From contig JAGHVB010000034.1 in NCBI GenBank assembly GCA_018064525.1, positions 1 through 64,000 of the forward strand: a stretch of 64,000 nt of DNA, in the 5' to 3' direction. Position 1 is the first letter of the stretch. Every line of letters starts with the position of its first letter. The stretch is from Candidatus Treponema merdequi. Its GTDB lineage: Bacteria > Spirochaetota > Spirochaetia > Treponematales > Treponemataceae. Below are positions 5,853-36,192 of this stretch, piece after piece. Below the pieces are notes generated by a model. The model made no database searches and was not told the origin of the DNA. It was given only the letters and a program-made list of their open reading frames with translations. Both the position numbers and the translations under genes were made by a program.

Positions 5853-5939
5853 CTAGAAGATAAGGTCCAGAACCTTTTTCACTCCTTTTTTGCAGGCATC
5901 AGCAGCACCTTTTAATCCGATACTTACAGTTGTACCGAT
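5853..5939 (-). pseudogene. Remnant of a double-glycine peptide gene (C-terminal 28 codons)
   Basis: Minus strand reads IGTTVSIGLKGAADACKKGVKKVLDLIF*, co-linear and same length as the last 28 aa of the 15845 peptide (LGTGIAVAATAISGTVSKVKKKFFDWLF*). No start; in-frame TAA immediately upstream. Confidence 0.6.
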
Positions 5940-6327
5940 TTATGTTTCTTTCTTACTACAAAAGATATCTTCAGAAATCAAAAACAATTCTTTCATCACG
6001 CCAGAAAGAAAATCTCACAGCCAAAACTTTCGGAAACTTTACGCTTCTCTATAAAAATTCCACTCTGAAATTTCAGCGCAGAAAATCTGTCGAGCTTTTA
6101 GCATATTTAATTTATAAAAATGGAACTGGCGCAAACTCGCAGGAACTTATTAATGTCCTTTTCGGTGACAATGCAACAAGTTCCGCATCAATCCGCTCGT
6201 AATTTCCTGCGACTATTACGATTTTCTGAAAGACCCGTCTTCTGCACGCGGAAAATTCACCGGCGAATTCATGAACCAGTTCTCATGGGCCGAAGAAGCA
6301 ATAGATTTTATTGAAAAAATGATTTAA
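5940..6327 (+). pseudogene. Truncated, frameshifted copy of the membrane SARP-like regulator at 16618..17661
   Basis: FLSYYKRYLQKSKTILSSRQKENLTAKTFGNFTLLYKNSTLKFQRRKSVELLAYLIYKNGTGANSQELINVLFGDNATS matches the intact copy; then a 100-bp deletion relative to it; the 3' end (INPLVISCDYYDFLKDPSSARGK...EEAIDFIEKMI*) continues in another frame. Confidence 0.9.
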
Positions 6328-13365: not shown

Positions 13366-15675
13366 CTATCTGTATAAGTAATATTCTGCCATATCGCCCG
13401 TAATATCTTTGGCATTACGGTTATTATCCCATTCAGTCATATTTATAACTTTCCACTCAGTTCTGCCGTTCTTTGTTTTATTAATCCAGTCATCACGGTT
13501 TTTTGAACGATACCACTGATCTTTTCCAACCATAGCAATTTCTTTCATTTTAGTACAACCTTTAAACGCAAACCTTCCTATTTGATCTACTCGTAATGTT
13601 ATTCCTTTAATACTTTCACAATTCATAAAGGCTGCTTCGTCTATACAGCGCAAATCACGACACTGAGGGAAAGATTGTAAATTGACACAGTCGTAAAAAG
13701 CATATCGTCCTACTTTTGTTAACCAGATAGGTGGATTTATCGAAGTTAAACTTTTACAACCATAAAATGCTCCGTCTCCAATCTCACTTACAGAACCAGG
13801 GCATACTGTATTTTTGCATCCGGCAACAAGGATATTTCCTTCTTTTTTGATAATTGCGTTACAATTTTCACGGTTGTCGAAAGTCGTACTTTCCGGATCT
13901 ACAACAATATTTTCAAGGTTTTCACAATAAGCAAAAACTGCCATTCCAACTGCTTCCAGATTTTTTGGAATTTTTATTGCAATCAAATTATTGCAGAAAC
14001 CAAAGGCTGTATCTTCCAGCTTTTTTAAGCCTGTACAGTTTAACAAATCAAGATTAACTCTAATATTTTCATTTTCTCTTAATGCTTCTGCAATTTTTGC
14101 AATATCAGGATTTTCATCTGAAATCTGAATAATAAAAATTTTGTCATATGGTTCTATCTGGCTCATTTTAGTTTTAAGTTCAGCCGAAGTTGAAACTACA
14201 GGTCCATCTTTCCATTCAGCCATCATAGTAAGAGAACCATATGTATTTTTAAATGTATCTCCAGGCTGATACAATTCCAGACCACTATTCCAGCCGATAA
14301 AATCCCAGCCTAAAGACGGGCCTGGCTGCGGAAGAGTAACCGATTCTGCATATTCACATTTAATCATATTAGGATTTTTTCCGTGTCCGCCCTGATTAAA
14401 TGTAATTACATATACTTTTATTAAGTATGTAATTTCTGCGATGTCACTATCTGCCATTCCATCTTTAACTGCAATTGCTTTGATTGTAGTATCTGCAGTT
14501 ATTTCAATCGGACCTGTATACTGTGTACTTAAAGAAGTTGGAGCATTTCCATCTGTCGTGTAATAAATCGTTGCACCTTCTGTCGTGCAGGATAATGTAA
14601 CAGAATCCCCTTTATTAACTACAGTATTTTTTTCATCAAAAATTGGTTTAGCAACTTTATTTTTTGCAATCCAATTTGCTTTGATAAGAACGTTATCTTT
14701 TACTGTATATTCATCTTCTGGTTTATAGTCATTTATGCCGTCTGTCCAGCTTTCAAAGAAATAAGAGTCATCTGTAAGAGCCTGTGGCAATGTAATTTTG
14801 TCACCTTTATATTTATTATAAACCGGCTCTGGAGTAGTAGAACCATGTCCGTTTAAACTATACAATACTGAATAAGTCTTTAATACATAAGAAATAGTTT
14901 CTACAGAACTATTATTCATTCCGGCTTTAACTGCAATTGCTTTGATTGTAGTGTCAGCAGTTATTTCAACAGGACCTGTATACTGTGTGCTCGAAGTGGT
15001 TGGATCTGTTCCATCTGTCGTGTAATAAATCGCTGCACCTTCTGTTTCACATGAAATAGTAATCTTTTCGTTTTTATCAATTTTATTGTTTTTGTTTTCA
15101 AAAATCGGAGTTTTTACTGTATTAAGAGCAATCCAGTTTGCCTTAAACATTGTATCATGAGTTACAGTATATGAAGAACCTGCTGCATAAGTATCAGTTC
15201 CATCTGTCCAGTTATCAAATATAAAACCTTCTGCCGTAAGAGCTTGTGGCAATGTAATTTGGTCACCTTTGTGTTTATTTAAATATGCCATCGGACTTTC
15301 GCCATGTCCGTTTGAATCAAAAATAATCGTAAAACCATTCAACAGATAAACAGCAGTTTCTATATTACTTGGAGTCATACCTTCTTTTATTGCAATGGCT
15401 TTAATTGTTGTTTTTTTTGAAATTAAAATTTTCTGTTCCTGATCGTATTTTATACTTCCTGCATTAGGAACAGTTCCATCTGTAGTATAATAAATTACGG
15501 CACCTTGTGTTTCACAGGAAATTTCAACTGAATCATTATTTTCAACAACACCAGATTCTTTACTGAACACAGGAGTTGCAACTCTATCAGGTAATACAGG
15601 TGAAGAACATCCCGTTACAAAACAAACAGCAATTAAACAAATTGCCACTGCAAATAAATTCCATTCTCTTCGCAT
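13366..15675 (-). CDS. Surface lipoprotein: three chitobiase-like/InlB-like tandem repeats plus BspA-type leucine-rich repeats
   Basis: Lipobox FVTGCSSPV; repeated GAxIYYTTDGTxP...EITADTTIKAIAVKxGM and xWTDGxxxYxxxxxYTV...KANWIA modules; LRR_5-like AFGFCNNLIAIKIPKNLEAVGMAVFAYCENL. Start at Met 12 with SD GGAGG. Confidence 0.8.
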   Translation of the reverse strand: MRREWNLFAVAICLIAVCFVTGCSSPVLPDRVATPVFSKESGVVENNDSVEISCETQGAVIYYTTDGTVPNAGSIKYDQEQKILISKKTTIKAIAIKEGMTPSNIETAVYLLNGFTIIFDSNGHGESPMAYLNKHKGDQITLPQALTAEGFIFDNWTDGTDTYAAGSSYTVTHDTMFKANWIALNTVKTPIFENKNNKIDKNEKITISCETEGAAIYYTTDGTDPTTSSTQYTGPVEITADTTIKAIAVKAGMNNSSVETISYVLKTYSVLYSLNGHGSTTPEPVYNKYKGDKITLPQALTDDSYFFESWTDGINDYKPEDEYTVKDNVLIKANWIAKNKVAKPIFDEKNTVVNKGDSVTLSCTTEGATIYYTTDGNAPTSLSTQYTGPIEITADTTIKAIAVKDGMADSDIAEITYLIKVYVITFNQGGHGKNPNMIKCEYAESVTLPQPGPSLGWDFIGWNSGLELYQPGDTFKNTYGSLTMMAEWKDGPVVSTSAELKTKMSQIEPYDKIFIIQISDENPDIAKIAEALRENENIRVNLDLLNCTGLKKLEDTAFGFCNNLIAIKIPKNLEAVGMAVFAYCENLENIVVDPESTTFDNRENCNAIIKKEGNILVAGCKNTVCPGSVSEIGDGAFYGCKSLTSINPPIWLTKVGRYAFYDCVNLQSFPQCRDLRCIDEAAFMNCESIKGITLRVDQIGRFAFKGCTKMKEIAMVGKDQWYRSKNRDDWINKTKNGRTEWKVINMTEWDNNRNAKDITGDMAEYYLYR

Positions 15676-15694
15676 GTAAACTCCTCCAGACAAA

Positions 15695-15741
15695 AAAAGT
15701 ACTTTCACCCGCCCAAAGTTTTTTCGAGTAAAAGTACTTTT
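15695..15741 (-). terminator. Strong hairpin with T-tract between the peptide genes and the lipoprotein gene
   Basis: AAAAGTACTTTCACCCG / CGAGTAAAAGTACTTTT arms (17 bp with G-U pairs), followed on the minus strand by T7. Confidence 0.7.
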
Positions 15742-15844
15742 ATTTATAGAAATAGTATAGAACTAAAAATATTATACTGTCAAATTTTTTTAGTATTGTA
15801 CATTTTGCATTTACAGCTGATGTTCAAATGAATGTCACTTATTC

Positions 15845-16102
15845 CTAGAACAACCAGTCAAAAAACTTTTTCTTAACTTTTGAAACAGTTCCTGAAATTG
15901 CTGTCGCAGCAACAGCAATTCCTGTTCCAAGACTTTTTCCAGTTAAATGAGCTATTTTTTTTGCAGTTACAGGTCCTTTAAAATCATCTCGAATCAGTTC
16001 CCCGCGGCTTTCAATTATGTCTGCGCATTTATCAACAATTTCACCGCCACCAGAAACATTTTCAAGTTCTTCATCATTAATTTTATTTGCTTTTTCTTTC
16101 AT
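15845..16102 (-). CDS. Double-glycine-leader secreted peptide (bacteriocin/RiPP-like precursor) 1
   Basis: MKEKANKINDEELENVSGGGEIVDKCADIIES...GTGIAVAATAISGTVSKVKKKFFDWLF; start at Met 6 of the track ORF with SD GGAGG; GG leader shared with the next gene. Confidence 0.78.
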   Translation of the reverse strand: MKEKANKINDEELENVSGGGEIVDKCADIIESRGELIRDDFKGPVTAKKIAHLTGKSLGTGIAVAATAISGTVSKVKKKFFDWLF

Positions 16103-16138
16103 ATCAGTATCCTCCATAAATAAAATTTTTTATTAAAA

Positions 16139-16360
16139 TTACCTGCACAAAATTATATTTGATTCTTCAAAAGTATCACCGCGTTTTTCGCAGCGTTTTT
16201 TGTATTCTTCCCATTTTTCTATCGGAACATCAAGAGAACCAACTGATGGAACTTTCCACGAAGTAGAAACCTTTCCAGATTCTCTTTCCATTTTGTAAGT
16301 AACAGCTCTTCCACCTGCAACATTTTCAAGTTCTTCATCATTAATCAATGTGCCATTCAT
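16139..16360 (-). CDS. Double-glycine-leader secreted peptide (bacteriocin/RiPP-like precursor) 2
   Basis: MNGTLINDEELENVAGGRAVTYKMERESGKVSTSWKVPSVGSLDVPIEKWEEYKKRCEKRGDTFEESNIILCR; SD AAGGAG upstream; leader nucleotides nearly identical to peptide 1. Confidence 0.78.
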   Translation of the reverse strand: MNGTLINDEELENVAGGRAVTYKMERESGKVSTSWKVPSVGSLDVPIEKWEEYKKRCEKRGDTFEESNIILCR

Positions 16361-16427
16361 ATTTGTCTCCTTTTACCATTTTTTATGGTGTTTTAATTTT
16401 TCCAGACTTTCCTGTCCGGTTCGTCAA

Positions 16428-16457
16428 TTTATACTGTCAGTTTACAGCCAGAGACAA
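16428..16457 (-). promoter_or_regulatory. Putative promoter of the double-glycine peptide genes
   Basis: Minus strand TTGTCT (16457-16452), 18 bp, TATAAA (16433-16428). The first AGCACA box begins 8 bp upstream of the -35. Confidence 0.5.
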
Positions 16458-16465
16458 ACACTATG

Positions 16466-16535
16466 AGCACAATTTTAAGCACAGTTTGAGCACAATTTAT
16501 AAATTTTTATTGAATTTCAGCACAGATTGAGCACA
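16466..16535 (+). repeat. Five AGCACA direct repeats (putative regulator-binding boxes)
   Basis: AGCACA at 16466, 16478, 16489, 16519 and 16530 (offsets 12, 11, 30, 11), within (T)GAGCACAATT-like units. Confidence 0.85.
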
Positions 16536-16617
16536 AAATTCAACTAAAAAAAATATATTCAGAAAATTTGACTTTTTAGATATTTACTATCTTAATAAAA
16601 CAACTTACTATTTATTT

Positions 16618-17661
16618 ATGGAAAATTTTGACACACAAAACGAAAAAAACCGGTCATTAATCAAATGGTATAAAGACAATTTTTATCTGAACGACGATCA
16701 GTTTTTTCCGCTTCTTAACCAGAATTTTTTCTGTACGAGAATTCTCTTAGTTGTAATTTTTTTGTGGGCATTTTTTAGTCTTTTCGGTGCAATTCTTCTT
16801 AATTTTCACAATCTTACACAAATTTATTCACGCATTTTTTATTATTGCGGTTTTATCATTTTAACAGGCAGTCTTTTAATTTTTTCTGCTACCATTAAAC
16901 GCACAAAAAAAATATCTATTATAATTTTTCCAATATATGTTCTGTTTTTCTGTTCCGAACTTTTAGGGCTTTACAATTTTTTTATGTTGAACAAGGTCTT
17001 TAACGGTTTTGTCGTTTATGTAATTTCAAATCTCTGTGTTATTTCACTTTTTGATTTAAGCCCGCTTTTATTTTCGGTCACTTCAATTATTCCATTTTCA
17101 TTAATGGTTTCCGGCTTGTATAATACTTATGGTTTAAGTGGAACTGCGGACTCGTGCCTTCTTTATGTTGTGCTTGTCGTTCTTGCATTTTACAAACGCT
17201 ATCTTCAGAAAACAAAAACAATTCTCACTTCGCGACAAAAAGAAAATCTTTCTGCAAAAACTTTCGGAAACTTTACACTCCTTTATAAAAATTCAACATT
17301 AAAATTTCAGCGCCGAAAATCCCTCGAACTTTTAGCTTACCTTATTTATAAAAACGGAACCGGCGCAAATTCGCAGGAACTTGTTTCTGTTCTTTTCGGG
17401 GAAAATGCAACAAGCGCAGTTTATGGAAACAGTTTAAGAAACTTAATCATCGACATCAAACACACACTAAAAGAAAACCAGATCGAAAACTTTTTCCTTA
17501 GTGAATACAACAACTTTCGCATCAATCCGCTCGTAATTTCCTGCGACTATTACGATTTTCTAAAAGACCCGTCATCTGCCCGCGGAAAATTTAACGGCGA
17601 ATTTATGAACCAGTTCTCATGGGCCGAAGAAGCCATCGACTTTATCGAAAAGAAAATCTAA
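16618..17661 (+). CDS. Membrane-anchored SARP/OmpR-type winged-helix regulator
   Basis: N-terminal multi-TM region, then TFGNFTLLYKNSTLKFQRRKSLELLAYLIYKNGTGANSQELVSVLFGENATSAVYGNSLRNLIIDIKHTLKENQIENFFLSEYNNFRINPLVISCDYYDF, matching the SARP-type DNA-binding pattern and the start of a BTAD-like region. Confidence 0.75.
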   Translation: MENFDTQNEKNRSLIKWYKDNFYLNDDQFFPLLNQNFFCTRILLVVIFLWAFFSLFGAILLNFHNLTQIYSRIFYYCGFIILTGSLLIFSATIKRTKKISIIIFPIYVLFFCSELLGLYNFFMLNKVFNGFVVYVISNLCVISLFDLSPLLFSVTSIIPFSLMVSGLYNTYGLSGTADSCLLYVVLVVLAFYKRYLQKTKTILTSRQKENLSAKTFGNFTLLYKNSTLKFQRRKSLELLAYLIYKNGTGANSQELVSVLFGENATSAVYGNSLRNLIIDIKHTLKENQIENFFLSEYNNFRINPLVISCDYYDFLKDPSSARGKFNGEFMNQFSWAEEAIDFIEKKI

Positions 17662-35139: not shown

Positions 35140-35968
35140 CTGTCATACAGAAAAGATTATCAATTATTTTTCCTTCTTTCTCTCCAGCAATTCCCATCGC
35201 CGAGATGCACGCTGCAACAGCTTCCAGCTTTTTTTCACGACAGCACGAAACAAACGCACCAAGCATCCCGGAAATCATACAGCCTGTACCGCAGATTTTT
35301 TCCATCTGCTCATTTCCATTTGAAATTACAAAGCAGCGGTCTCCGTCAGAAACAAGATCATATTTTCCTGTTGCTGCAATGATGCAGTTTAATTTCTGCG
35401 CAAGCTGTTTTACGAGAGAAATATTCTGTAAAAGATTTTTTTCTGTGATTGCATCAGAAAAGTTAACATCAACACCAAAAGTATGACCCGCATCACACGA
35501 AAAACTTTTTTCACTTGCAATATCCGAGTCACACGAAATACCCGCAGACTTTTGAACAGATTTCCTTTTACAGAAAACTTCTGCAATTGATTTTATCTCC
35601 GACATATTTCCTTTGATGACATCAAATTTTACTTTTGAAATTAATTTTTTACACGCATCAGTTCTAAACTTTGTCGCACCGCATCCGACAGGATCAAGAA
35701 CTGCAGTTTTTCCAAACTTATTTGCAGTACGGCCAGTTTTAAGCATTGTCCGCAGCGTACGACGGTTTACAGTTCCGATATTAATATTAACTGCCGATGC
35801 CGATTCTGCAAGTTCCACTGCATCACGAAGATCATCAGACATCACGGGACTTGCACCGATTGCGAGAATACAATTTGCGACATCGTTAACAGTTACATAA
35901 TTTGTAAGATTTAAAATTAAAGGTTTCTGACGTTTTATGTCAGAGAGAATTGAATTAATCATTTTCAC
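35099..35968 (-). CDS. thiM: Hydroxyethylthiazole kinase
   Basis: PLILNLTNYVTVNDVANCILAIGASPVMSDD, LDPVGCGATKFR, ICGTGCMISGMLGAF. Confidence 0.93.
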   Translation of the reverse strand: MKMINSILSDIKRQKPLILNLTNYVTVNDVANCILAIGASPVMSDDLRDAVELAESASAVNINIGTVNRRTLRTMLKTGRTANKFGKTAVLDPVGCGATKFRTDACKKLISKVKFDVIKGNMSEIKSIAEVFCKRKSVQKSAGISCDSDIASEKSFSCDAGHTFGVDVNFSDAITEKNLLQNISLVKQLAQKLNCIIAATGKYDLVSDGDRCFVISNGNEQMEKICGTGCMISGMLGAFVSCCREKKLEAVAACISAMGIAGEKEGKIIDNLFCMTDDILESEAKYEIK

Positions 35969-36052
35969 TTCCTACGTTGGCATTATCCAAATCAGGTTAT
36001 AAGGGTAAAGGAAACTCCTACTCTCAGCCGGCCTTGTACCAGCTCCCCATGT
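35969..36052 (-). promoter_or_regulatory. TPP riboswitch
   Basis: Minus strand GGGGAGCTGGTACAAGGCCGGCTGAGAGTAGG...TTTACCCTTATAACCTGATTTGGATAATGCCAACGTAGGAAGTG; conserved CTGAGA, ACCTGA and GGATAATGCCA.GTAGG blocks, directly upstream of thiM. Confidence 0.96.
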
Positions 36053-36192
36053 TTTTATGATGTGATATTAATTATTTTTTAATGGAATTTCAAGAGAAAA
36101 TTTTAAACCAAAATCTCAAAATTCTTAATTTTCTACAAAATATAAATTTTCTCTTTACTAATTCCACTTTTACATATTAAAATTACCCATAT

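Follow-up and report, generated by a model that had tools for sequence, protein, structure and literature searches.

In the window, a 64,000-nucleotide stretch of Candidatus Treponema merdequi DNA analysed here, two adjacent genes encoding double-glycine (GG) leader precursors, pepA and pepB, lie opposite a divergently oriented gene for a SARP-like membrane regulator, and the gap between them contains AGCACA direct repeats that form a candidate operator. The strongest new result is a phylogenetic footprint that links one defined DNA site with the family of the regulator. We consider it probable that the locus is a local, membrane-based one-component switch governing a pair of exported peptides, in which the regulator would bind the repeats and activate pepBA as well as its own gene, with export of the peptides in trans. 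The gene anatomy, an operator conserved together with the regulator family, an exporter and the common leader motif are direct outcomes of the computation. Both GG-leader ORFs, like the divergently encoded protein of 347 aa, were found where the earlier note had described them; the intergenic AGCACA direct repeats and a decayed second copy of the module at 5853-6324 go beyond that description.

The regulator gene (16618..17661, plus strand) is divergent to pepBA and encodes a protein of 347 aa, which is composed of a six-TM domain (residues ~26-191), a long signalling helix (149-210), an OmpR/SARP-type winged helix (211-302) and a short C-terminal tail with the sequence CDYYDFL...GEFMNQFSWAE. 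Six hydrophobic segments fall within residues 42-191. An AF2 model based on an alignment with 76 relatives reached a pLDDT of 93.8 and a pTM of 0.83, and revealed six long helices, followed by a helix of 60 residues that exits the membrane and then by an OmpR-type winged helix. This high-confidence model and the hydrophobic segments agree with the multi-TM N-terminus and SARP/OmpR-type winged helix previously read from the sequence. When 28 sequences were used, the pLDDT of the C-terminal half stayed below 60; the final model added relatives and clostridial output domains. Foldseek returned AfsR (8hvr and 8k60; E 2e-3) and EmbR (E 2e-2) as the best folds in the PDB, followed by OmpR-family DNA-binding domains, and a PDB sequence search with the single regulator protein found nothing. 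PF00486 matched 8 of 28 family members weakly (best E 0.008), the window regulator not being among them, and none of the 28 matched PF03704 (BTAD). Because a full BTAD is missing, with only ~45 residues following the wing in the model, we call the protein SARP-like instead of classing it as a SARP. Homology of the six-TM domain to the membrane domains of adenylyl cyclases or diguanylate cyclases was considered and is not claimed, as the folds matched only weakly (E ~0.1 or worse).

Strong matches to the regulator occur in 31 of the 145 other same-genus genomes sampled. Among 85,462 species genomes scanned, only Treponema-type records, including T. bryantii, yielded full-length relatives; the relatives are mostly metagenome assemblies, and the two collections in which they were gathered overlap. 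Clostridial response regulators share only the C-terminal half and have a receiver domain where the membrane domain stands here; SpoIIE-type phosphatases of Treponema that are not linked to peptides share only the six-TM domain. At L239-L243 in relatives, tandem proteins of 454-466 aa carry a regulator-like six-TM domain fused to a SpoIIE-type phosphatase, which suggests a common membrane sensor module. The regulator itself looks like such a modular sensor fused directly to a SARP-like output, as though a two-component pair had been made into a one-component protein. The window regulator forms the longest branch of its own family (1.16 versus a median of 0.23) and has lost the N-terminal DLAD..E[ST]NR motif; its function may therefore have changed or be decaying.

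Five AGCACA units lie in the gap between pepB and the regulator gene. The primary operator candidate (16466..16499, plus strand) comprises three units, at 16466, 16478 and 16489, with spacings of 12 and 11 bp, and the secondary candidate (16519..16535, plus strand) comprises two, at 16519 and 16530, with a spacing of 11 bp. The exact sequence AGCACA-N5-AGCACA occurs twice genome-wide, both times in this gap. A possible pepBA promoter, TTGTCT-N18-TATAAA (16428..16457, minus strand), was read by eye, the consensus promoter scan having omitted it because it demands a T at the last -10 position; its -35, TTGTCT, is situated ~9 bp below the nearest operator unit. Upstream of many regulator relatives, the AGCACA unit recurs as AGCACANAATC-AGCACA in an 11-bp phase. 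Across 196 same-genus genomes, the pattern AGCACNNAATCAGCAC gave 66 matches versus 0 for the reversed pattern. The repeat pattern was present in 21 of the 31 genomes with a strong regulator match versus 6 of 114 others (p 8e-13), the strict form being absent in 10 of the 31. Among 59 relative loci, 53 of 54 repeat sites are intergenic. Extra units in relatives lie 22, 33, 44 or 55 bp away and thus on one helix face. On sequence and phylogenetic evidence, the site resembles the 11-bp-period direct-repeat operators of SARPs, and its position in the common intergenic region supports the earlier proposal that the regulator would control the peptides.

In some relatives the repeats are found at the regulator gene only. 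Elsewhere they also precede non-regulator genes, with no regulator in between, and these mostly encode secreted or surface proteins: large lipoproteins (1000-1900 aa, without a Pfam match), a chemoreceptor (MCP), a GH43 lipoprotein, a GH130 phosphorylase, a pectinesterase-like protein and a lipase-like lipoprotein. A GG-leader ORF was found near none of ~90 regulator homologue loci (two overlapping collections) in a scan that used one leader pattern, which unlike leaders would escape. The co-occurrence of exporter and regulator across the genus is weak (Fisher p 0.04), and many genomes carry regulators without an NHLP exporter. The general module of GG peptides and TM-SARP that the earlier note envisaged is thus not borne out: apart from the decayed copy in the same window, no homologue among the loci scanned pairs the regulator with GG peptides. 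Given the ~90 loci lacking such an ORF, and the lack of pepA and pepB homologues described below, GG peptides as an output are special to this lineage. The family looks like a set of new surface-output switches, joined here to bacteriocin-like peptides.

pepA (15845..16102, minus strand) encodes an 85-aa precursor with the GG leader MKEKANKINDEELENVSGG and a core of 66 aa. A longer pepA ORF reaches 16117 (90 aa), but translation probably starts at the second ATG, at 16102, because a GGAGG ribosome-binding site falls within the 90-aa ORF just 5' of that codon; this corrects the start of pepA. pepB (16139..16360, minus strand) encodes a 73-aa precursor with the GG leader MNGTLINDEELENVAGG and a polar core of 56 aa with two Cys, and its ATG is preceded by a strong ribosome-binding site (SD AAAGGAGAC). 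An ELxxVxGG-type leader, a small ORF and a ribosome-binding site are found together in both genes. The core of pepA joins a hydrophobic, GxxxG-like stretch, GTGIAVAATAISGTV, to a cationic C-terminus, KVKKKFFDWLF, and the core as a whole has a computed charge of +2.8 and a pI of 9.25; for such a small, cationic peptide with a predicted hydrophobic helix, bacteriocin activity is plausible, more so than for pepB. The leader profile search proposed earlier put pepA at the edge of TIGR01847 (15.6 bits, cut-off 15.7) and gave no match for pepB. The class II bacteriocin profile PF10439 reached 11.4 of 27.1 bits, and TIGR03798 (NHLP/Nif11-type leader) matched neither peptide. No curated match was found for pepA, pepB or the regulator in Pfam, NCBIfam and PADLOC searches. 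There were no homologues of pepA or pepB in 200 same-genus genomes and none of pepA in 274 genomes of the family. A phage or mobile origin was rejected, as viral contigs hold no relatives of either gene. The two cores are probably bacteriocin-like or otherwise secreted.

The leaders of pepA and pepB both end in NDEELENV[S/A]GG, and with 0 mismatches this common leader, already recognised in the earlier note, occurs solely at these two sites in the 2.7-Mb genome. A loosened pattern gave 22 matches in the same genome versus 3 for a reversed control, so that leader matches go beyond chance. At least seven further small GG-leader ORFs are scattered over contigs C10, C14, C18, C70 and C86, several of them occurring as pairs, and leaders ending in VNAAG or VSAG adjoin them. 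L071:7724-8780 and L075:7869-8906 of this genome each hold a cluster of three small leader-bearing ORFs, some of the leaders ending in VNAAG/VSAG and not in GG. A leader-like match on contig C43 (L004) was judged spurious, having no small ORF.

Contig C43 carries the single C39-peptidase gene of the genome (PF03412, E 2e-41), a TIGR03796 peptidase/permease/ATPase that scores 1004 bits against a cut-off of 853. Its operon comprises an ECF sigma factor, an HlyD protein (TIGR03794), the TIGR03796 protein, a second ABC protein (TIGR03797), a substrate-binding protein and a TolC-like protein. TIGR03794, TIGR03796 and TIGR03797 all exceed their curated cut-offs, and by its predicted gene content the operon is a complete NHLP-type export system. 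The window itself holds no exporter, as had been stated earlier, and the expectation that one would act in trans found a candidate here. In a genome of the same genus (L244:3329-4376), five tandem precursors of 61-79 aa lie directly upstream of an NHLP exporter; their long leaders, ending in (I/V)LNDEELDSVAGG and variants, are near-identical and their cores differ. The ends of these leaders nearly match those of pepA and pepB, the likeness being confined to the last 12 residues. Over 28 genomes, the leader pattern is more frequent with an exporter than without (6.4 versus 2.6 per genome, p 0.002), a test that is supportive only, because a control pattern likewise rises slightly (1.5 versus 0.86, p 0.04, same genomes). 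Considering the C43 operon, the L244 leader likeness and the leader-frequency test, the proposed export and cleavage of pepA and pepB in trans by the C43 exporter is well supported. The AGCACA operator is absent at the C43 exporter and at the other GG precursors, so that membership of these genes in the same regulon was rejected and the switch is a local one. In a clostridial MAG, an ORF at L229:2752-3753 joins a C39 peptidase domain of the NHLP type directly to a SARP-like winged helix, either through misassembly or as a genuine fusion.

At 5853-6324, 10 kb from the intact module, the window contains a decayed second copy. It consists of a regulator remnant (5939..6324, plus strand), limited to the C-terminal part with an internal deletion and 82-87% aa identity to the regulator, and, divergent to it, a probable pepA-like remnant (5853..5939, minus strand) made up of the C-terminal 28 codons, IGTTVSIGLKGAADACKKGVKKVLDLIF-stop. 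The latter rests on a short ungapped alignment to the pepA C-terminus, and 1.5% of shuffles score as high. The divergent layout of the intact module is retained. The peptide remnant is far more diverged than the regulator remnant, as would be expected for peptides under diversifying selection. Directly downstream of pepA lies a BspA-like lipoprotein gene (13366-15708, minus strand; 780 aa) with chitobiase C-terminal-type, Listeria-Bacteroides repeat and LRR_5 domains. We rejected it as the last gene of a pepBA operon, since it has its own promoter-like site, TTGACA-N18-TATACT; a hairpin-like AAAGTACTTT repeat also precedes it (~15690-15745). Further features of the window are a bacterial small SRP RNA (RF00169; 21177-21275, minus strand) and a TPP riboswitch (35951-36059, minus strand).

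In the mechanism that we favour, the regulator would sit in the inner membrane via its six-helix sensor domain, which most likely responds to a condition of the envelope or membrane; the long helix would link this sensor to the cytoplasmic SARP/OmpR-type winged helix. The winged helix would bind the AGCACA-N5 repeats, in 11-bp phase, between the regulator gene and pepBA, and the bound regulator would most likely activate both pepBA and its own gene. Export of the precursors and their cleavage after the GG would then fall to the genome's one NHLP-type C39 exporter, whose operon lies on another contig. DNA binding, the direction of regulation and export in trans are what we infer from this arrangement. 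Alternatively, the regulator could control itself only, with pepBA adjacent by chance and read from its own promoter. Such a reading fits the lack of pepA and pepB homologues, the unconserved pairing and the relatives in which repeats stand at the regulator alone. We nevertheless judge it unlikely, as the operator with three units is the one nearer to pepB and stands directly above a plausible -35, the repeats of relatives precede other, mostly secreted or surface genes without an intervening regulator, and the same pairing is kept in the decayed copy.

The decayed copy also bears on what the sensor might perceive. A peptide remnant is paired there with a regulator remnant, the intact genes diverge around a common operator region, and the sensor is strongly diverged from its family, as expected if its ligand had changed. 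These features would suit a peptide-responsive switch, in which the six-TM sensor would recognise the exported peptide, or a product of its cleavage, in a quorum-type feedback loop. While the membrane SARP/OmpR-type regulator of the earlier note stands, its peptide sensing appears distinctly improbable, with no GG-leader ORF near the ~90 homologue loci of the two overlapping collections, many regulator-bearing genomes without an NHLP exporter and the same six-TM domain fused to SpoIIE phosphatases unlinked to peptides. We are similarly doubtful of a broader proposal, namely an undescribed Treponema membrane SARP-type class, with a six-TM sensor replacing the receiver and AGCACANAATC 11-bp repeats, of which one member was recruited here to a peptide pair and senses a peptide or envelope effect. 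As for the products, there is an appreciable though lesser chance that the GG peptides are not bacteriocins but act, once secreted, as surface or matrix peptides that do not kill bacteria. The T. denticola GG-signal proteins TDE_0416/0422/0424 are secreted, yet growth inhibition was not seen (PMC11879956); moreover, relatives of the regulator face surface proteins, and no immunity gene was recognised adjoining pepBA. The T. denticola proteins, however, are 167-614 aa long and encoded beside their exporter, whereas pepA has a small, cationic core with a GxxxG-like hydrophobic stretch and a leader at the edge of TIGR01847, and the peptide remnant diverged fast.

The favoured switch would link a membrane sensor family of gut and rumen Treponema to an operator recognisable in the sequence and hence to a testable regulon. 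Candidate members are large surface lipoproteins, fibre enzymes, chemoreceptors and, here, exported peptides. Likewise, a single NHLP exporter that may serve scattered GG precursors offers a concrete spirochaete peptide secretion system to test.

When comparing the locus with NHLP/NHLM systems, the genome has a full exporter operon, and the leader end NDEELxxV[SA]GG is shared with exporter-adjacent precursors. However, the pepA and pepB leaders are short (17-19 aa) and lack the long Nif11/NHLP-like helix of NHLP precursors, and the peptide genes and the exporter lie on separate contigs. The bacteriocin-type signal proteins and TepAB of T. denticola are alike in their 17-18-residue GG leader, treponeme host and nearby lipoprotein genes (PMC11879956). 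pepA and pepB are far smaller than those exporter-adjacent proteins and have their exporter elsewhere, and no membrane regulator is described for the TepAB system in the part of that report consulted.

On the regulator side, the C-terminal half is homologous to that of clostridial response regulators (REC, winged helix and a CDYYDFL...GEYMSQYSWAE tail), with ~31-45% identity. The clostridial proteins carry a receiver and, in the neighbour inspected (L223), are partnered by a histidine kinase; in the Treponema family, the output domain is joined directly to the membrane domain. In ToxR and CadC, a cytoplasmic winged helix at the N-terminus is followed by a single TM helix and a C-terminal periplasmic sensor. 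The regulator shares with them a membrane-integrated OmpR-type winged helix, but its order is reversed, with six TM segments first and no evident periplasmic domain, and it is not of the ToxR/CadC type. SARP operators consist of repeats that recur every 11 bp; PimR is served by two operators, which contain three and two repeats (PMC5930380). The regulator resembles the SARPs AfsR, EmbR and PimR in its predicted winged-helix fold and in its 11-bp direct repeats, arranged as 3+2 units like those of PimR. It differs in having an N-terminal six-TM domain, a C-terminal winged helix and a short tail instead of a full BTAD, and its host belongs to the Spirochaetota, not to the Actinobacteria. We found no earlier example of a membrane-integral SARP-type regulator in the literature searched, and it would represent a new one-component layout.
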